64,000 nucleotides of DNA from Cylindrospermum stagnale PCC 7417. Its GTDB lineage: Bacteria; Cyanobacteriota; Cyanobacteriia; Cyanobacteriales; Nostocaceae. The DNA lies in NCBI RefSeq assembly GCF_000317535.1, contig NC_019757.1, forward strand, positions 3,809,501 through 3,873,500, read 5' to 3'. This document shows positions 14,006 through 24,903 of the stretch, piece after piece; position 1 is the first letter of the stretch, and each line of letters begins with the position of its first letter. The notes beneath the pieces are model-generated. The model saw only the letters and a program-made list of their open reading frames with translations, did no database searches and was not told the DNA's origin. Both the position numbers and the translations under genes were made by a program.

Positions 14006-15916
14006 CTACAAAATCGTACTAATTTCTTTCAAGTAAACCCGTGTAAATGGTTCGTTTTCACCCAAGGTGTAATCTTCAATCAACCCCTTGCTTCTAATAG
14101 AAATGTCGTTTTCTTTCCTAATTACTACAGTTGACCCATCGAAGACATTCCTTACTAGCATCATCTCGGTTTCACTAGGATTATCCAAAACTACAATATT
14201 ACTCCCCTGGTAAAACATCCCCTCATCTTCTAGGATATCTCCTGTGTATTCGGCAATCAGCAAATCTAGTTTAGGATGACGTAGTAAAAGTTGCACGTTG
14301 CTGTTGTAATCTTGGTTCAATACTTTTGCTGACCGATTTACAAAAACTGCATCACGACAAACTGCTCCAATTGTCCATTCAGGATGCTGTAAAAGAATAT
14401 GGTCAATTGTAGTTTGCAGTTCCTGAACGGAGATTTTATTAAAGGTAATCACTGGTATCCTGGCATTTATACCAGACTCAAAAAAGGTTTCCAAAATATG
14501 AGCAGGTACATCAACACTTTCACCAATTGCCGGGTTAAGATGCATCAAAATGCCTGGTGCAGCGTTGATTTCTAAAATGGCAAAGTTACTAGATTTCCAA
14601 GATTCTGAGAGACTTTTAGTAATGACATCAATGCCAAGACAAGTTAGGCGAAAGTATTGGGCAATATCTTGGGCTAGGATGATATTGTCATGGTGAATTG
14701 TCTGTGTTGCATCAATACTCAACCCGCCAGCTGAAAGATTAGCAACTTTGCGGAGGTAAATGATGCGGTCTTTGCTAATGACTTTGTTTAAGGATAAACC
14801 TTGTTCTTCTAAGTAAAGTTCCATCGCCTCATCAATCTGAATCTTGCTCATCGGCGAGGTTGGTGAGTCCAGACGTGCAGGTTTACGGTTTTCTCGGTGA
14901 ATTAACTCCTCAATTGTTAAGTACCCATCACCGACAATGGATGCTGGACGGCGTTCTGTGGCGGCGACAAATCTGCCATTGACACACAGTAAGCGAAAAT
15001 CCTTTCCAGATATACTTTTTTCGACAATTATTCTTGTTGGCTGCTCTTCTGGTATTGCTGCCAGCGCTCTATTGTAGGCAGACTCTAACTCTTTTGAGTC
15101 TTGCACCTCAGCTGTGACGCCAATTCCTTTATGACCTACCACAGGCTTAACTGCTACCGGGTAGCCAATTTCTCTGGCTACCGCGAAGGCTTCTTTTTCG
15201 GAAACGACGATATCACCCTCAGGGACTGGGAAACCCAAGGTTTTTAGAAAAACTTTGCAGTCATCCTTGCGGGTGGTGAATTCTGAATCTATGTGGCTAT
15301 CACAATCAAATGTCGTCGCTACTCCCCGGACTAGTTTTTTTCCGTAGCCATATTGGATTAATCCTTCTTCCCACAAATAAAAGGCGGGTATACTTTTTTC
15401 GTAGGCGGTTCGCAATAAGGCGTAAACTGTGGGGCCACCGTAGACAGATAACCGGAATCTGTTCTGAAGCCTCACCAGTTGTTCGTCAAACAGGAAGTCT
15501 TCACCTTGAGTAATGGCTTCAAACCAATCCCAGACAAAGTAAACTACTGCTTTAGTTGTGCGTGCATGTAAAGATTGGAGGCTAATTCGCACATAATGTG
15601 GATATGGCTTGACACTCCAACGGTTGAGGTGCAAACCCATGTCCAGCTTGCCTACTTCTGAGACAACGCGAGCGAACAAATGAGCATAGGATTCGTATGT
15701 CTGGTCACCCAAGTGCGAATAGCGATCGCTAATAATTGAAATATAGTCCTCAATGGGTAAGGGCTGTCGATATTCAGTCAAAGAAAAATTAAACACTAGG
15801 GCCCCTGTATCTAAATAGGGGTTCGGTCCAATGTAATGCTTAAAGTCGAAAATATCGAAGACATCCGTTTTTCTGGCATTGATGCGGATTACATCGGTGA
15901 TTTGTTCTTGCACCAT
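14006..15916 (-). CDS. cphA2: CphA2-like cyanophycin synthetase (ATP-grasp, degenerate Mur-ligase part)
   Basis: 636 residues. The central part (about 190-480) is the ATP-grasp domain of cyanophycin synthetase: YGYGKKLVRGVATTF, GFPVPEGDIVV, YPVAVKPVVGHKGIGVT, VNGRFVAATERRPASIVGDG and LEINAAPGILMHL. CphA1 is about 870-900 residues and has a Mur-ligase half with a GTNGKTT P-loop; here the matching place after RIPVITF reads NKISVQELQTTI, so the second ATP site is gone and the domain is cut short. That is the described layout of CphA2, which repolymerises beta-aspartyl-arginine released by cyanophycinase. cphB lies close by on the other strand, which fits. The name rests on domain layout rather than on an alignment. 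Confidence 0.75.
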   Translation of the reverse strand: MVQEQITDVIRINARKTDVFDIFDFKHYIGPNPYLDTGALVFNFSLTEYRQPLPIEDYISIISDRYSHLGDQTYESYAHLFARVVSEVGKLDMGLHLNRWSVKPYPHYVRISLQSLHARTTKAVVYFVWDWFEAITQGEDFLFDEQLVRLQNRFRLSVYGGPTVYALLRTAYEKSIPAFYLWEEGLIQYGYGKKLVRGVATTFDCDSHIDSEFTTRKDDCKVFLKTLGFPVPEGDIVVSEKEAFAVAREIGYPVAVKPVVGHKGIGVTAEVQDSKELESAYNRALAAIPEEQPTRIIVEKSISGKDFRLLCVNGRFVAATERRPASIVGDGYLTIEELIHRENRKPARLDSPTSPMSKIQIDEAMELYLEEQGLSLNKVISKDRIIYLRKVANLSAGGLSIDATQTIHHDNIILAQDIAQYFRLTCLGIDVITKSLSESWKSSNFAILEINAAPGILMHLNPAIGESVDVPAHILETFFESGINARIPVITFNKISVQELQTTIDHILLQHPEWTIGAVCRDAVFVNRSAKVLNQDYNSNVQLLLRHPKLDLLIAEYTGDILEDEGMFYQGSNIVVLDNPSETEMMLVRNVFDGSTVVIRKENDISIRSKGLIEDYTLGENEPFTRVYLKEISTIL

Positions 15917-16239
15917 TGATTATAAACCTTTGGCTAGATACCCTGAACTCTGGACTCTGAGTGGCTGTTACTCAAACTCATTTATTGACAGTTGATTGAC
16001 ATTATTGGAGGTAACTTTGGCTTGAGCTTAACGCGATTGTTTGGCATTTTCAGCTATCCCAAGACATAATTTCCATAAAATAAAATTTATCAGCATCCCA
16101 GTTGTCACTAGAAGATAAAAATCAGTCTCTATCTCCATCTATGAATGAAAAAAAATATAACCTTTGAAAGGTGCAAGACCTTGCCAAAATTTATATAAGT
16201 AAGGTATGGCAAAGTATGACATTAGGGAGACAGCAGAGT
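15917..16239. other. divergent promoter region of cphA2-like gene and small ORF
   Basis: 323 bases between two divergent starts. It must hold both promoters; I could not identify a convincing NtcA or other operator. Confidence 0.45.
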
Positions 16240-16443
16240 ATGAATAGCACGCAAGTTGCCCTGAGAAGCGAAGTTCGACAACTGGCTGAAGAAGCTTTTC
16301 ACCGTAAGCTGATTTCTGGACATGGAGATGGGCCAGACGACAAAGAATACCAAATTGTCTACCAGGGAAAACCCAGGCATCTGCCACTAGAACAAGCAAG
16401 GTTTTTCTTAATTAACTTGCTCTACAGAAGTCGGATTCATTAG
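16240..16443 (+). CDS. small conserved-looking protein in the cyanophycin cluster
   Basis: 67 residues from the ATG at 16240 (MNSTQVALRSEVRQLAEEAF), preferred because GGGAGA lies about 10 bases upstream; in-frame ATGs at 16171 and 16216 give longer forms. The rest reads HRKLISGHGDGPDDKEYQIV followed by a basic, hydrophobic C-terminus. Not recognised. It lies between the cphA2-like gene and cphB and points toward cphB, with 385 bases in between, so a link to cyanophycin metabolism is only positional. Confidence 0.65.
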   Translation: MNSTQVALRSEVRQLAEEAFHRKLISGHGDGPDDKEYQIVYQGKPRHLPLEQARFFLINLLYRSRIH

Positions 16444-16828
16444 AGGTTCTCAGTTAAAAACATAGCTGCCTATATCCAATTGCACGTGGCTAGAGTTAAT
16501 GCCCAGATGTATTCCCAAGAGTCACCTTGGCAGCAGGGCATAAGTTACCTTGCCACGGATGTTATCCTTTACCAAAAATCTCAAAAATTCAATAAATTTT
16601 ACAGACAATCCCTCTAGAAAATTATTGCTTATAAGGTCTATATGCATTTGGTGATAATTTCTAGCGGAGGTGATCAAAAGACTTGTTTCCGTTTAACAAT
16701 TTTCTAATTGCAAATCCAAGATGATCAAGCCTAATGTATCTTCAAATTTTTAGATACATCTACCAAACGGAAGATTTTGTATCTGACGTTTTCCCTAGCT
16801 CAATTAAATTAACTAATGAGGAGACATC
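16444..16828. other. cphB upstream region
   Basis: 385 bases without an ORF. It contains the inverted repeat annotated at 16734-16759 and a second pair of half-sites, TTTCCGTTT near 16686 and AAACGGAA near 16764. Confidence 0.5.
16734..16759. promoter_or_regulatory. perfect inverted repeat upstream of cphB
   Basis: ATGTATCT and AGATACAT, 8-bp arms separated by 10 bases, 69 bases before the cphB start. A further TGTATCT half-site occurs at about 16778. The geometry suits a dimeric regulator site, or an RNA hairpin in the leader. It does not match the NtcA pattern GTAN8TAC. Confidence 0.4.
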
Positions 16829-17683
16829 ATGGCTGAGAATGAAACCACGCGGCAGCTAGTGATTATTGGCGGTGCTGAAGACAGAGATGGGGATTCCCAA
16901 GTCTTGCGGGAGTTTGTGCGCCGTTCAGGGAGTATCAAGGCAAACATTGTGATTATGACAGCGGCGACGGAACTACCAAGAGAAGTAGGCGACAATTATA
17001 TTAAAGTCTTTACTCGTTTAGGCGCTGCGGATGTTCGCATTATAGACACGGAAACTCGTGAAGATGCATCTTCATCTACGGCATTAGAGGCAATTAGTAA
17101 GGCAACTGGAATATTTTTTACTGGGGGAGACCAAGCTCGGATCACTGGCATCCTCAAAGATACTGAAATTGATAAAGCGATTCACCAACGTTTCTCTGAA
17201 GGCATAGTTGTAGCAGGTACAAGCGCGGGAGCTGCTGTGATGCCAGATCAAATGATCGTCGAAGGTGACTCCCAGACAAACCCCCGGATTGAAGTTGTGG
17301 AAATGGGGCCTGGTCTTGGTTTTCTGCCTGGGGTGGTGATTGATCAGCATTTTTCCCAACGCGGACGTTTGGGACGCTTAATTGCTGCTTTGGTGCAACA
17401 GCCTGCGGTTTTGGGATTTGGGATTGATGAGAATACCGCGATGATAGTCACCGACGGTCAGATTGAAGTGATTGGGGAAGGCGCTGTGACGATTGTGGAT
17501 GAATCAGAAGCTACATATAATAATCTGGATGAAATTTTAAAGGATGAGCCTTTGGCTGTTTTCGGCGCCAAGCTGCATATTTTGCCGCATGGGTTTAAAT
17601 TTGACCTAAAAACCCGCCAGCCTATCCTGAGTAATCGCTCGGCGGCGAATGTCCCTGTCCCAGCCGGTTCAGCAAATGCCTAA
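16829..17683 (+). CDS. cphB: cyanophycinase
   Basis: Serine exopeptidase of family S51 that degrades cyanophycin to beta-aspartyl-arginine dipeptides. 284 residues. Nucleophile Ser132 is in GTSAGAAVM, His174 in IDQHFSQRGR and Glu201 in GIDENTAM, positions that agree with the characterised cyanobacterial enzyme as I remember it. The ATG at 16829 is preceded by GAGGAGA 6 to 12 bases upstream. It is divergent from the CphA2-like gene, so breakdown and dipeptide re-use enzymes are neighbours. Confidence 0.96.
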   Translation: MAENETTRQLVIIGGAEDRDGDSQVLREFVRRSGSIKANIVIMTAATELPREVGDNYIKVFTRLGAADVRIIDTETREDASSSTALEAISKATGIFFTGGDQARITGILKDTEIDKAIHQRFSEGIVVAGTSAGAAVMPDQMIVEGDSQTNPRIEVVEMGPGLGFLPGVVIDQHFSQRGRLGRLIAALVQQPAVLGFGIDENTAMIVTDGQIEVIGEGAVTIVDESEATYNNLDEILKDEPLAVFGAKLHILPHGFKFDLKTRQPILSNRSAANVPVPAGSANA

Positions 17684-20338: not shown

Positions 20339-22864
20339 GTTGCAATTCATCAAAATCCCTATTAGGGATTGAAACGAATACTTGGGCTTTCCTACAACAA
20401 CAGTAGTGGGTTGCAATTCATCAAAATCCCTATTAGGGATTGAAACGTGGGATCTTTATCAACTTCAGACGCAAGCTGGAGTTGCAATTCATCAAAATCC
20501 CTATTAGGGATTGAAACACAAAGAAAATACGAAACCGCAGAAAAGATACTTGCGATCGTTGCAATTCATCAAAATCCCTATTAGGGATTGAAACGCATAC
20601 AGAATTACTTGTTCGCAATTCCTGCAAGTTGCAATTCATCAAAATCCCTATTAGGGATTGAAACGCCGTGAACCATAAATTAAAAACCCTCGATGTATGT
20701 TGCAATTCATCAAAATCCCTATTAGGGATTGAAACCTTTAAAGTCTGTGACAATTCCCGCCGCGTTGTGTTGCAATTCATCAAAATCCCTATTAGGGATT
20801 GAAACGCGAGTGCTGCTAGTGAATTCCTTGCCCCGTTGGGTTGCAATTCATCAAAATCCCTATTAGGGATTGAAACGAAAGCCATAATAAGTATATAGTC
20901 ACGGATCTGGTTGCAATTCATCAAAATCCCTATTAGGGATTGAAACTTACCCTAATGCTAATGTAGCTCCTTTAGATTATTTAAGTTGCAATTCATCAAA
21001 ATCCCTATTAGGGATTGAAACTTTTCTCCTATTTCTACAAGAGTTGAACTACCAGTTGCAATTCATCAAAATCCCTATTAGGGATTGAAACGTAAAGAGA
21101 TACGGCATCGATAATGTAGTACTCCTGTTGCAATTCATCAAAATCCCTATTAGGGATTGAAACCTTGACTACTGCTATGTGATTGTAAAACCCTCCAATT
21201 CCGTTGCAATTCATCAAAATCCCTATTAGGGATTGAAACTAAAACTTGGTCTGCAAGCAAAGTACCCGCAGGTTGCAATTCATCAAAATCCCTATTAGGG
21301 ATTGAAACGCAATGATTCTTGCAGGAGGTGGGATGAGTCATGTTGCAATTCATCAAAATCCCTATTAGGGATTGAAACCTTTGTGACAAGCTAGCTCCTA
21401 TTCTTCATTGGGTTGCAATTCATCAAAATCCCTATTAGGGATTGAAACCAATAACGGCTATAGTGAAAAGCCAAATGTGCAGTTGCAATTCATCAAAATC
21501 CCTATTAGGGATTGAAACGAAATGTCTACCATCCAAGCGAACCACCCATAAAGTTGCAATTCATCAAAATCCCTATTAGGGATTGAAACTTTTTCATGGA
21601 TTGAAGAAAAAATTACTCGTTGGTTGCAATTCATCAAAATCCCTATTAGGGATTGAAACAAAAGCCAGAATCATTGGTAAATCCTGGAGAATCAAGTTGC
21701 AATTCATCAAAATCCCTATTAGGGATTGAAACTTTCTAGTGGGAAATAAGAGAGTAGTTTGGATAAGTTGCAATTCATCAAAATCCCTATTAGGGATTGA
21801 AACTTCTAGGCTAGGTAGTTCTAGCAGAGTACCCAAAGCCAGTTGCAATTCATCAAAATCCCTATTAGGGATTGAAACTTTATTTGTCAATGAAGCGGCA
21901 AGCCTTGCTAGTTGCAATTCATCAAAATCCCTATTAGGGATTGAAACAGCCGCTCCCATTTCTAAATTATAAGCAGTGATCCCCTGTTGCAATTCATCAA
22001 AATCCCTATTAGGGATTGAAACTTTAGAACAACTTGTAGAAGATGGAAAGTTGCTATTTGTTGCAATTCATCAAAATCCCTATTAGGGATTGAAACTTGC
22101 AGGGCACGGGCATAAATTACGTTAGTCCCGTTGCAATTCATCAAAATCCCTATTAGGGATTGAAACGTAAACGAGATTTTAAATAGATTTCCTATTGCAC
22201 TGTTGCAATTCATCAAAATCCCTATTAGGGATTGAAACAGCCCAGTTGGACGCAAAGAAGAGATAGTTTGGTTGCAATTCATCAAAATCCCTATTAGGGA
22301 TTGAAACAAATCATAAATATAAATTGGGAAATGCAAGTGCGAGTTGCAATTCATCAAAATCCCTATTAGGGATTGAAACTATATCCCTGACCTGCCACCT
22401 GCACGAAGGTAGACTTGCGTTGCAATTCATCAAAATCCCTATTAGGGATTGAAACTTAGAATTAATTCCTCAGCATGAAGGAAAGAGCACGTTGCAATTC
22501 ATCAAAATCCCTATTAGGGATTGAAACGCTGTTGCTGTCTATTCGTCCCGCCAATGCGATTGCCACAGGTTGCAATTCATCAAAATCCCTATTAGGGATT
22601 GAAACTCTGATCCCAATCCTTTATCTATGCGTATCAGTTTGTTGCAATTCATCAAAATCCCTATTAGGGATTGAAACTTGAGTTACTTACAAGATAAACT
22701 AGATTTATACTGTTGCAATTCATCAAAATCCCTATTAGGGATTGAAACGCATATATGATGGTGAATTTCCAAATCTGCCAAGGGTTGCAATTCATCAAAA
22801 TCCCTATTAGGGATTGAAACTTCCTACATGACACAGATACCACCAAATACATTGTTGCAACTCA
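20339..22864 (+). CRISPR. CRISPR array, 35 full repeats plus a truncated last repeat
   Basis: The 37-bp repeat starts GTTGCAATTC, carries the palindrome TCCCTATTAGGGA and ends GGGATTGAAAC; all 35 full copies I traced look identical. Starts run from 20339, 20410 and 20481 through to 22712 and 22784. Spacers are 32-41 bases (mostly 33-35), 35 in all counting the one before the truncated repeat at 22854, where only GTTGCAACTCA remains. The 8-base tag ATTGAAAC fits processing by a Cas6 enzyme. Spacer size and repeat form suit type I-D, I-B or III systems. No cas gene is present within the window on either side. Spacer targets could not be searched. Open frames reading SIPNRDFDELQ or SKSLLGIET are repeat artefacts. 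Confidence 0.98.
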
Positions 22865-23218
22865 AGCCATTGGCTTTTGCATTCTTGAAAAGAAATCTGT
22901 AAGCGAGTCTACGATTCCTGTTACCAGGAGCAATTAAGAAATCAGGCTTCAACAGATTACGCTAAAAGAACTAATTTTCTGGGTAAATCTAGCAAGGGTG
23001 TTACCAGGGGCAAGTAGTATTTAAGTAGGTTGGGTTGAGGCACAAAACCCAATATTATCAATAAATTTGTTGGGTTCTCACACGGTAAGCCCAACTTACA
23101 ATTTTCTCAAGTGAACCGCATTGATCATAAAAATACTCGGTATGCGGGAAAGTCAGGGTCTTTAGACCTGAGAGGGAAGCGACACGAGCGGTTTTAACCG
23201 CCGTGGTATGAGTCTATA
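22865..23218. other. non-coding stretch between CRISPR array and TnpB locus
   Basis: Contains the short inverted-repeat element at 23024-23099, a direct repeat of GTTACCAGG near 22919 and 22999, and two hairpins near 23155-23171 (GGTC-TTTA-GACC core) and 23188-23201 (GCGGTT/AACCGC) that may belong to the end of an IS200/IS605 element. Confidence 0.45.
23024..23099. repeat. short dispersed inverted-repeat element
   Basis: About 76 bases bounded by AGTAGGTTGGGTT and AGCCCAACTTAC, with internal AAAACCCAA and TTGTTGGGTT copies. It resembles a common Nostoc intergenic repeat rich in GGTTGGGTT; only this copy is in the window. Confidence 0.45.
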
Positions 23219-23302
23219 TTATCCGTGGTGTGGGTCTTCAATATAACGCCTAACTGCTTCGCTGCTAACATTCCCTGCTGTACTCACAAAATAACTTTGT
23301 AG
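23219..23302 (-). pseudogene. tnpA: C-terminal remnant of an IS200/IS605 tnpA (Y1 transposase)
   Basis: The minus strand reads LQSYFVSTAGNVSSEAV then RRYIEDPHHG and a TAA stop. SYFVSTAGNVS followed by RRYIE is the conserved tail of IS200/IS605 TnpA. In frame, an upstream TGA lies 7 codons before Leu23302 and no catalytic HUH or Tyr part is present. The rest of tnpA would have to lie where tnpB now begins (23309), so this is a broken relic. Confidence 0.7.
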
Positions 23303-23308
23303 TCGATT

Positions 23309-24676
23309 ATGATATGGATATCAACGAAACTCTGGAAAGTAGAGCCAGTGGCTAAAGTCAAGAAAATAATCGGAGTGCAACAAGTCTTGCTGTCTCCTAA
23401 CAATGAGATAAAAGCGTTATTAGAGTACCTTTGTCAACAAGCAGGAAAGCTGTATAACAACGGTGTTTATTTTGCTCGACAAATATTTTTTAAGACGGGA
23501 ACACTCTTGACTGGTAAATTTGATTTGGCCTTTGAACCATCTGTTTCAAAGACTTTGACTGCTCAATCATTGCCATCAACACCAATGCAACAAACTTTGA
23601 TGTCTGTAGCAGAAGCTTTCAAATCTTTTAAAGAGTTGAGAAATTTATATATCAAAGGTCAGCTACATTTCAAACCAAAGGCACCAGATTACCTCAAAGG
23701 TTCAAAGCTTTTTAAAGTCGCTTATCCAAACTCTGGGGGACAAAAACCAACTCTTGTTGATGGTCAACTTAGATTTTCTTTGGGACTGACAGTTAAAAGA
23801 TGGTTTGGCGTTTCCGAATTTTTCCTGCCCATGCCATCAAATATTGATTACTCCAAGGTTAAAGAGTTTACTATTCTTCCTAAAAATGGGGCTTTTTATC
23901 TTGAGATGTCTTACGAGATAGCACTACAAAAACACGACATAGATATTAATCAAGCACTATCAATTGACCTAGGAACTGCTGATAATTTAGCGGCTTGTGT
24001 AGATACATTGGGTAATTCTTTGCTGATTGATGCCCGTGGCATGAAAGCCATGAATCAGTTGTGGAACAAAAAAGTATCAACTCGTCAAGAAACTAAACCA
24101 GAAAATTATTGGGATAATTGGCTAGACCGCGTAACCCGCAAACGCAACCATCAAATGCGTGACGGGATCAACAAAGCCGCCAAATTAATTATCAACCACT
24201 GTCTTAATTACAGTATCGGAACATTAGTAATCGGTTGGAATCAAGGTTTTAAAGCTAATGCCAATATGGGTAGATTCAACAATCAAAAGTTTGTTCAAAT
24301 GCCTTTAGGCAAGTTGAAAGACCGATTAAAACAACTTTGTGACTTGCACGGTATTAGATTTCAAGAAACTGAAGAAGCTTACACCTCAAAAGCCAGCTAT
24401 CTAGATGGAGACTCCCTGCCCCAATACGGTGAAAAACCTCTGGGGTGGAAAGCATCGGGAAGGCGGATTGAGCGTGGATTATATCGGTCAGAAAACGGTT
24501 CAATTGTTAATGCTGACCTTAATGGTGCAGCAAATATTCTCAGAAAAGTAGCCAGCAATCTCAGCTTAGACTTAGGCTTACTGGGTAGACGGTCTTTGAC
24601 AACCGTAGCGAGAGTTAGACTTTGGAAACTACCTAAGTTTACTCTGTCCGCAGAATCTCAGCGGCTTCAGCCCTGA
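23309..24676 (+). CDS. tnpB: TnpB family RNA-guided nuclease, rearranged RuvC site
   Basis: 455 residues; the true start may be the GTG at 23348 (VAKVKKIIG), since the first 13 residues come from tnpA-relic DNA. RuvC-I Asp220 is in LSIDLGTADN and the last Asp403 in NADLNGAANI. At the place of the usual RuvC-II Glu (IEDLN in most TnpBs) this protein has VIGWNQ, Gly309. Glutamates at 353, 355 and 356 in QETEEAYTSKAS lie 44-47 residues later, where a displaced catalytic Glu is described for Fanzor-like TnpBs. The CxxC zinc finger is absent; DGDSLPQYGE and ASGRRIERGLYR replace it. TnpB cuts DNA guided by an omega-RNA from the element's right end, and helps retain the transposon. Confidence 0.88.
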   Translation: MIWISTKLWKVEPVAKVKKIIGVQQVLLSPNNEIKALLEYLCQQAGKLYNNGVYFARQIFFKTGTLLTGKFDLAFEPSVSKTLTAQSLPSTPMQQTLMSVAEAFKSFKELRNLYIKGQLHFKPKAPDYLKGSKLFKVAYPNSGGQKPTLVDGQLRFSLGLTVKRWFGVSEFFLPMPSNIDYSKVKEFTILPKNGAFYLEMSYEIALQKHDIDINQALSIDLGTADNLAACVDTLGNSLLIDARGMKAMNQLWNKKVSTRQETKPENYWDNWLDRVTRKRNHQMRDGINKAAKLIINHCLNYSIGTLVIGWNQGFKANANMGRFNNQKFVQMPLGKLKDRLKQLCDLHGIRFQETEEAYTSKASYLDGDSLPQYGEKPLGWKASGRRIERGLYRSENGSIVNADLNGAANILRKVASNLSLDLGLLGRRSLTTVARVRLWKLPKFTLSAESQRLQP

Positions 24677-24677
24677 G
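24657..24677 (+). ncRNA. right-end hairpin of the tnpB element, probable omega-RNA 3' region
   Basis: CTCAG-C-GGCT-TC-AGCC-CTGAG forms a two-part stem with one bulge and includes the tnpB stop codon. In TnpB loci the guide RNA overlaps the end of tnpB and extends into flanking DNA, so the RNA probably covers this hairpin. RNA boundaries were not determined. Confidence 0.4.
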
Positions 24678-24752
24678 ACTGTCAATTATTTGAATTACAT
24701 CTTTCGTAGGGGCACAGCCAATACGGTTCGGTTAACGTTTGAATCTGTGGAA

Positions 24753-24903
24753 GATCCCCCCAACCCCCCTTAAAAAGGGGGGCTTTAGACTGTTTTTTAG
24801 CCCTTTTTAAGGGGGGCTTTAGACTGTTTTTAGCCCTTTTTAAGGGGGACTTTTGACTCTCTTTTACCCCCTTTTCAAGGGGGTCGCCGCAGACGGGGGG
24901 ATC
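24753..24903. repeat. palindromic-ended tandem repeat, GATCCCCCC family
   Basis: Bounded by GATCCCCCC and GGGGGGATC. Inside are direct copies of CTTTTTAAGGGGGGCTTTAG, about 37 bases apart, alternating with AGACTGTTTTTAGCC. A related element with the same ends is at 48952-49097. Confidence 0.75.

Follow-up and report, generated by a model that had tools for sequence, protein, structure and literature searches.

TnpB proteins have been divided into those with the canonical RuvC-II Glu and those in which this Glu is displaced (Ealt), and the displaced-Glu proteins in turn into DPhiG and DPG clades (PMC10711439). In the available text of that paper, the DPG clade comprises the Fanzors and the pro-Fanzors, the latter mostly from cyanobacteria and found together with IS607 TnpA. 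The line ancestral to Fanzors is marked there by DPG plus Ealt, a combination called specific to the Fanzor clade; the search pattern requires a zinc finger, and the displaced Glu is spaced E-x6-C from the first finger Cys. Another study recognises five major TnpB clades, among them the Derived TnpBs, which carry NADxN and whose guide-RNA scaffold retains two 5' stem loops and a 3' stem loop (PMC10278001). The zinc finger is described as conserved in TnpBs (PMC3627910, PMC9956272), and the motif shared by TnpB and Fanzor as a C4 finger followed by RD (PMC3627910). In the solved complex of the Fanzor SpuFz1, the metals are bound by D383, N385, E541 and D606 (PMC10432273).

We analysed a stretch of 64,000 nucleotides of the Cylindrospermum stagnale PCC 7417 genome (hereafter, the window). 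It contains a tnpB gene of 455 codons at 23309–24676 (+ strand, as are all features below unless noted). Its product matches the curated model NF040570 (guided_TnpB) at 158 bits against a cut-off of 100, which places it in the TnpB family; PF01385 (44.6 bits) and PF07282 (29 bits) are also matched above cut-off. We would read the protein, with a probability of about 0.87, as a Derived, or Ealt-DPhiG, TnpB of a zinc-free clade, encoded on an IS200/IS605-type element (23129–24685) that retains a stub of its Y1 transposase, and predicted to act as an ordinary OMEGA nuclease.

The motif residues were read in an alignment of 126 rows (the window protein and 125 relatives that are 380 aa or longer and as little as 29% identical). 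RuvC-I is DLG at residues 220–222, with Asp220 (codon 23966–23968) conserved in 126/126 rows. The slot of the canonical RuvC-II Glu is Gly309 (codon 24233–24235), in the context LVIGWN and likewise invariant. Glu353, Glu355 and Glu356 follow 44, 46 and 47 residues later, in the context QETEEAYTSKAS; Glu356 (codon 24374–24376) is present in every row, Glu355 in 125 and Glu353 in 104, varying in the other 22. RuvC-III reads N401-A402-D403-L404-N405, where Asp403 (codon 24515–24517) is kept in 125/126 rows and NAD at 401–403 in 120/126. A smaller alignment of 68 rows (the window protein and 67 of 80 relatives, picked for coverage) agrees. Since D220, G309, E356, E355 and D403 are nearly uniform over 126 rows, the displaced-Glu pattern is more than a chance feature of one sequence. 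No CxxC...CxxC finger occurs in the window protein, in any of 119 family hits or in any of the 125 relatives, and the motif of PMC3627910 is absent from the window protein, which has no Cys4 and reads NAD instead of RD. An earlier note on this DNA had described exactly these residues and the lack of a four-Cys finger; both readings hold, and both features extend over the whole clade. Displaced-Glu TnpBs, for which the note had pointed to published work on Fanzor, are indeed described in PMC10711439.

The gene lies in an element with defined ends. A TCAT at 23125–23128 marks the left boundary, and the left end follows at 23129–23209, with a hairpin at 23153–23171 and a palindrome at 23188–23201; it matches the left ends of the related loci L009, L012 and L103. 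Left ends of the copies start at TCATA, and the sequence before is unconserved. The anchored motif was found in 73 of 115 distinct contexts, a count that depends on anchoring the rows with a TCATA-like pattern; the remaining contexts are mostly right-end matches, and at least three left ends read TCATC or TCATT. TCAT is the probable transposase target and TnpB TAM of the element, by its resemblance in shape to the IS605-type TAMs TCAC of AmaTnpB and TTGAT of Dra2TnpB (PMC10278001). On the right, a subterminal hairpin at 24656–24678 includes the tnpB stop codon, and TCAA at 24682–24685 forms the boundary. With a fuzzy right-end pattern, TCAA ends 77 of 78 right ends, followed mostly by unrelated sequence.

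Between the left end and tnpB, on the − strand, we found the C-terminal 25 residues of a Y1 transposase (23222–23296); the rest of tnpA is missing. The open frame that holds them, 23222–23320, matches PF01797 at 20 bits, under the 23-bit cut-off, over profile positions 99–120 of 121, and the intact homologue in L009 (5538–5939, −) scores 127 bits. A divergent Y1 tnpA lies within 500 bp in 31/125 relatives. The Y1 gene beside tnpB (a stub in the window, intact in relatives), the subterminal hairpins and the fixed ends identify an IS200/IS605-type element. The window copy may be decaying, because its tnpA is broken and its right end, GAGACTGTCAA, deviates from most of the 70 aligned copies, which read GAGAGTGTCAA. 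Shortly 3' of the element, repeated C/G-rich palindromic units of the CCCTTTTTAAGGGGG type occupy 24750–24890.

A guide-RNA (omega/re-RNA) scaffold region of three hairpins overlaps the 3' end of tnpB at 24536–24685, its 5' limit being provisional. It consists of two 5' stem loops (helix 1; helices 2 and 3) and one 3' stem loop (helices 4 and 5, the right-end hairpin). Over 70 sequences, 90.7% of the cells of its 27 pairs are paired. Both sides change in 19 of the 27 pairs, versus a shuffled mean of 11.2; cells with double changes number 150, versus 48.7 when shuffled. Slid controls reach at most 53.1% pairing, and the covariation score is 0.282 against 0.135 for shuffled and at most 0.085 for slid versions, a comparison that favours the scaffold over the slid versions because the structure was derived from the fold of the window. 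The inner helix 3 is weaker, with 81% pairing; two of its pairs are disrupted, one in 25 and the other in 34 of the 70 rows.

Synonymous divergence drops over the last 150 aligned coding nucleotides in each of the five relatives, out of seven, for which both values were computable: dS falls from 1.30 to 0.28 (L009), 1.24 to 0.41 (L103), 1.18 to 0.15 (L010), 2.07 to 0.73 (L019) and 1.44 to 0.70 (L042), rough values given that many exceed 1. At gathering scores, Rfam found CRISPR repeats in the window and no scaffold family. The predicted guide, defined by position, is the host DNA directly after the right end (24686–24705, with the length assumed). A 16-nt probe of it has a single exact match in the genome, its own flank. 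When two mismatches are allowed, the matches number 21 versus 17 for the reversed control, a count so near that of the control that we see no sign of another chromosomal target.

A guide RNA derived from the end of its own mRNA has been shown for another TnpB (PMC10278001). By analogy with published TnpB work, the 3' end of the tnpB mRNA with the right-end hairpin would supply the element's own guide RNA, and the host sequence after it would serve as guide. The protein would process or accept this RNA, with the guide starting at 24686, and the ribonucleoprotein would find copies of the guide sequence flanked by TCAT, the putative TAM, which are unoccupied sites. A RuvC site of D220, E356 and D403, with E356 as a presumed metal ligand, would cut them, and repair after cutting would favour retention of the element. 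Mobilisation of the window copy would be expected in trans only.

Where does this protein belong in the family? We calculated a tree of 42 rows after removing the finger region and the columns of the motifs. The tree is unrooted and contains one presumed Fanzor, on a long branch; 25 relatives were chosen by hand, and the canonical near-copies L114, L122, L123, L124, L125 and L127 were dropped. The window protein and the 25 zinc-free relatives form one group (100/100), and 12 canonical finger TnpBs group separately (92/93). A third group (78/31) joins L115, L126 and L129, described below, with L79 (PDB 9b0l), which we take to be the mimivirus Fanzor2; its branches are long and the join may be false, as the tool warned. 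From this grouping, the window protein is neither a canonical TnpB without its Glu, the outcome that the earlier note had named as fatal to its reading, nor a pro-Fanzor. It fits the Derived TnpBs as their text description in PMC10278001 defines them: NADxN and the scaffold of two 5' and one 3' stem loops are shared, and no tested feature differs. It likewise resembles the Ealt DPhiG TnpBs in its displaced Glu and DLG; the pattern by which those were collected, however, needs a zinc finger, which the window clade lacks (PMC10711439). The clade thereby departs from the TnpBs of PMC3627910 and PMC9956272, in which the finger is described as conserved. ISDra2 TnpB (PDB 8h1j) is, like the window protein, a TnpB with RuvC, guide RNA and an IS200/IS605 setting, but has the canonical Glu, a Cys4 finger and RD. 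A single-protein phmmer search of the PDB gave no match; the family profile matched six chains (Cas12f, IS605 OrfB transposase or OrfB Zn-ribbon protein; E 8e-5 to 1e-3).

The same genome holds proteins of the published pro-Fanzor pattern. Among 30 of the 46 PF07282 matches in the genome we found three, elsewhere than the window, that carry it exactly (DPG, displaced Glu, Cys4): L115 (85–1794, +), L126 (1405–3198, −) and L129 (13–1788, +). Their displaced Glu lies in [NT]-E-[SE]-Y-T-S-K-T-C, and like the window protein they have this Glu late; they differ in having Pro (LPTFE) at the canonical slot, where the window protein has Gly, and DPG, a Cys4 finger and RD, where it has DLG, no finger and NAD. 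L79, reached in the PDB solely through the profile of these proteins, reads VNEYLTTKTC and shares both the displaced Glu and the Gly at the canonical slot with the window protein, from whose clade it is set apart by DPG, a Cys4 finger and a long branch. A search of viral contigs with the three-row pro-Fanzor-pattern alignment gave no confirmed relative. With canonical, pro-Fanzor-pattern and zinc-free displaced-Glu TnpBs in one genome, a clean comparison of the three is at hand.

The earlier note had left the choice among Glu353, Glu355 and Glu356 open, and E356 is the best candidate for the displaced catalytic Glu by sequence comparison: its conservation, its alignment and its spacing agree. 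In a comparison of the window-family and pro-Fanzor-pattern profiles, it aligns without gaps with the displaced Glu of L115, L126 and L129, and it satisfies the published E-x6-C spacing, S363 occupying the slot of the first Cys. MAFFT misaligned RuvC-II between the clades, so G309 was assigned to the canonical slot from a profile comparison, which is one residue off: counted on the printed alignment, the canonical Glu lands on W310, next to a gap at G309. These alignments would place a Glu near the RuvC aspartates, and in SpuFz1 the Glu is also late, 65 residues ahead of the last Asp, where E356 stands 47 ahead of D403 (PMC10432273). That E355 is the catalytic residue instead is unlikely, even though its conservation comes close to that of E356; L152 has Asn at this position, the pro-Fanzor-pattern proteins and L79 have Asn or Thr, and all of them have Glu at 356, which the published spacing also suits. 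Less probable again is a protein that lacks a RuvC-II Glu and is dead as a nuclease, acting for instance as a guided repressor. The empty canonical slot would fit such a protein, as would a tnpB stranded by the loss of its tnpA, but all three candidate catalytic residues are invariant or nearly so over the 126 rows. Moreover, TAM activity was reported for 27 of 59 orthologues across clades, and RII-r5, from a clade with rearranged RuvC-II, was among the active ones (PMC10278001).

The earlier note had also proposed that the protein belongs to the TnpB branch ancestral to eukaryotic Fanzors. A pro-Fanzor of the IS607 line would account for the late Glu and for a canonical slot filled by Gly or Pro, both common to the window protein, the pro-Fanzor-pattern proteins and L79, and the 92/93 branch does separate the canonical group from both displaced-Glu groups. 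We nevertheless regard this placement as highly improbable. The window protein has DLG where the published definition demands DPG with Ealt; in place of a Cys4 finger and an IS607 partner it has no finger, a Y1 stub and Y1-linked kin; it reads NAD instead of RD; and it falls in its own 100/100 clade outside the pro-Fanzor group of our unrooted tree with its one presumed Fanzor. The proteins that do carry the published pattern are distinct loci of the same genome. The window protein thus looks like a cousin, and not a direct forerunner, of eukaryotic Fanzors.

The immediate neighbourhood offers one further reading, to which we give the least credence of all: that the protein works as a C2c8/V-U2-like effector of type V CRISPR with the array upstream. 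This array of 35 CRISPR-DR5 repeats (Rfam; 20339–22820) ends 488 bp before tnpB, and PADLOC returned a weak match of the protein to a Cas12f model (41 bits). The NCBIfam C2c8 model (NF038192), however, was not among the hits at E ≤ 1, a range in which the HMMER filters drop most hits above about 0.1. No cas gene was noticed beside the array, and a single cas1 was found in the genome, about 2.1 Mb away. Of 88 loci, six were flagged by a repeat detector, none of them CRISPR-like on inspection, since the stretches between the repeats were repetitive or coding (many loci are short, and short or irregular arrays may escape the detector). The element ends and the covarying scaffold, by contrast, accompany tnpB itself, and the adjacency of the array is most likely a coincidence. 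The reading as a zinc-free Derived TnpB on its own element is the one we retain.

We then asked how DPG is distributed in this clade. Across 60 non-redundant rows of the zinc-free clade, the RuvC-I motif is DLG in 36, DHG in 11, DPG in 9, DFG in 2, and DVG and DIG in one each. DPG needs four changes on the tree, and the starred branches alone force two. A tree constrained to keep the nine DPG rows together was rejected (p-AU 6.5e-42; the DPG motif defined the group, and its column was omitted). Altogether, 10/125 relatives combine DPG with the displaced Glu (L137, L138, L143, L145, L179, L180, L181, L182, L184 and L189), and two of these zinc-free proteins, L145 and L179, have an adjacent Y1 tnpA. 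The combination is therefore probably not exclusive to the IS607-linked Fanzor line with its zinc finger, as which PMC10711439 describes it in the available text, and has been gained or lost repeatedly: the middle residue of DxG varies (L, H, P, F, V, I), with four changes to or from Pro. The published pattern demands a zinc finger and so would have missed the zinc-free DPG proteins. In a limited literature search, which reached some sources in part, we found no report of TnpBs with DPG besides PMC10711439. With DPG so scattered, naming Fanzor ancestors by DPG and a displaced Glu alone is risky. On this reading, the zinc-free clade would allow what the displaced Glu does to be told apart from what the zinc finger and DPG do. 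The clade could also be put to use as a system that is compact, zinc-free and built on a displaced RuvC Glu.

The clade is not rare, contrary to the "less-studied branch" of the earlier note: matches to the family, fragments included, occur in 46 of 60 related genomes, and the Derived TnpBs are a published major clade (PMC10278001). The window gene is one TnpB among many of a described clade and as a single gene matters little. In the search of genome contigs, the best 80 of 111 confirmed relatives are 68–87% identical over the best segment, and all are cyanobacterial by title. Against the six of seven relatives for which dS was computable, dN/dS of tnpB is 0.067–0.103; the protein is under selection. 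Thirteen contigs of a viral collection (L089–L101) also carry TnpB relatives, six at 75–82% and seven at 29–46% identity.

A second full copy, L103, is present in the same genome, with a short left end directly 5' of tnpB. The gene pair that flanks it lacks the element in all five relatives inspected; 5 of 12 loci were aligned, and divergence of the intergenic sequence obscures the exact junction. In L103, Ile replaces Lys at position 361 (YTSIAS). A genome of the same genus (G030) contains thirteen near-identical frames of 157 aa (for example C41:73939–74376) that cover profile positions 291–437, from RuvC-II to the C-terminal end. Several of them sit at contig ends, and they are possibly a miniature element that retains the guide-RNA end. 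Elsewhere in the window, at 14006–17683, a short, putative cyanophycin synthetase-like gene (−) is followed by a putative cyanophycinase-like gene (+).
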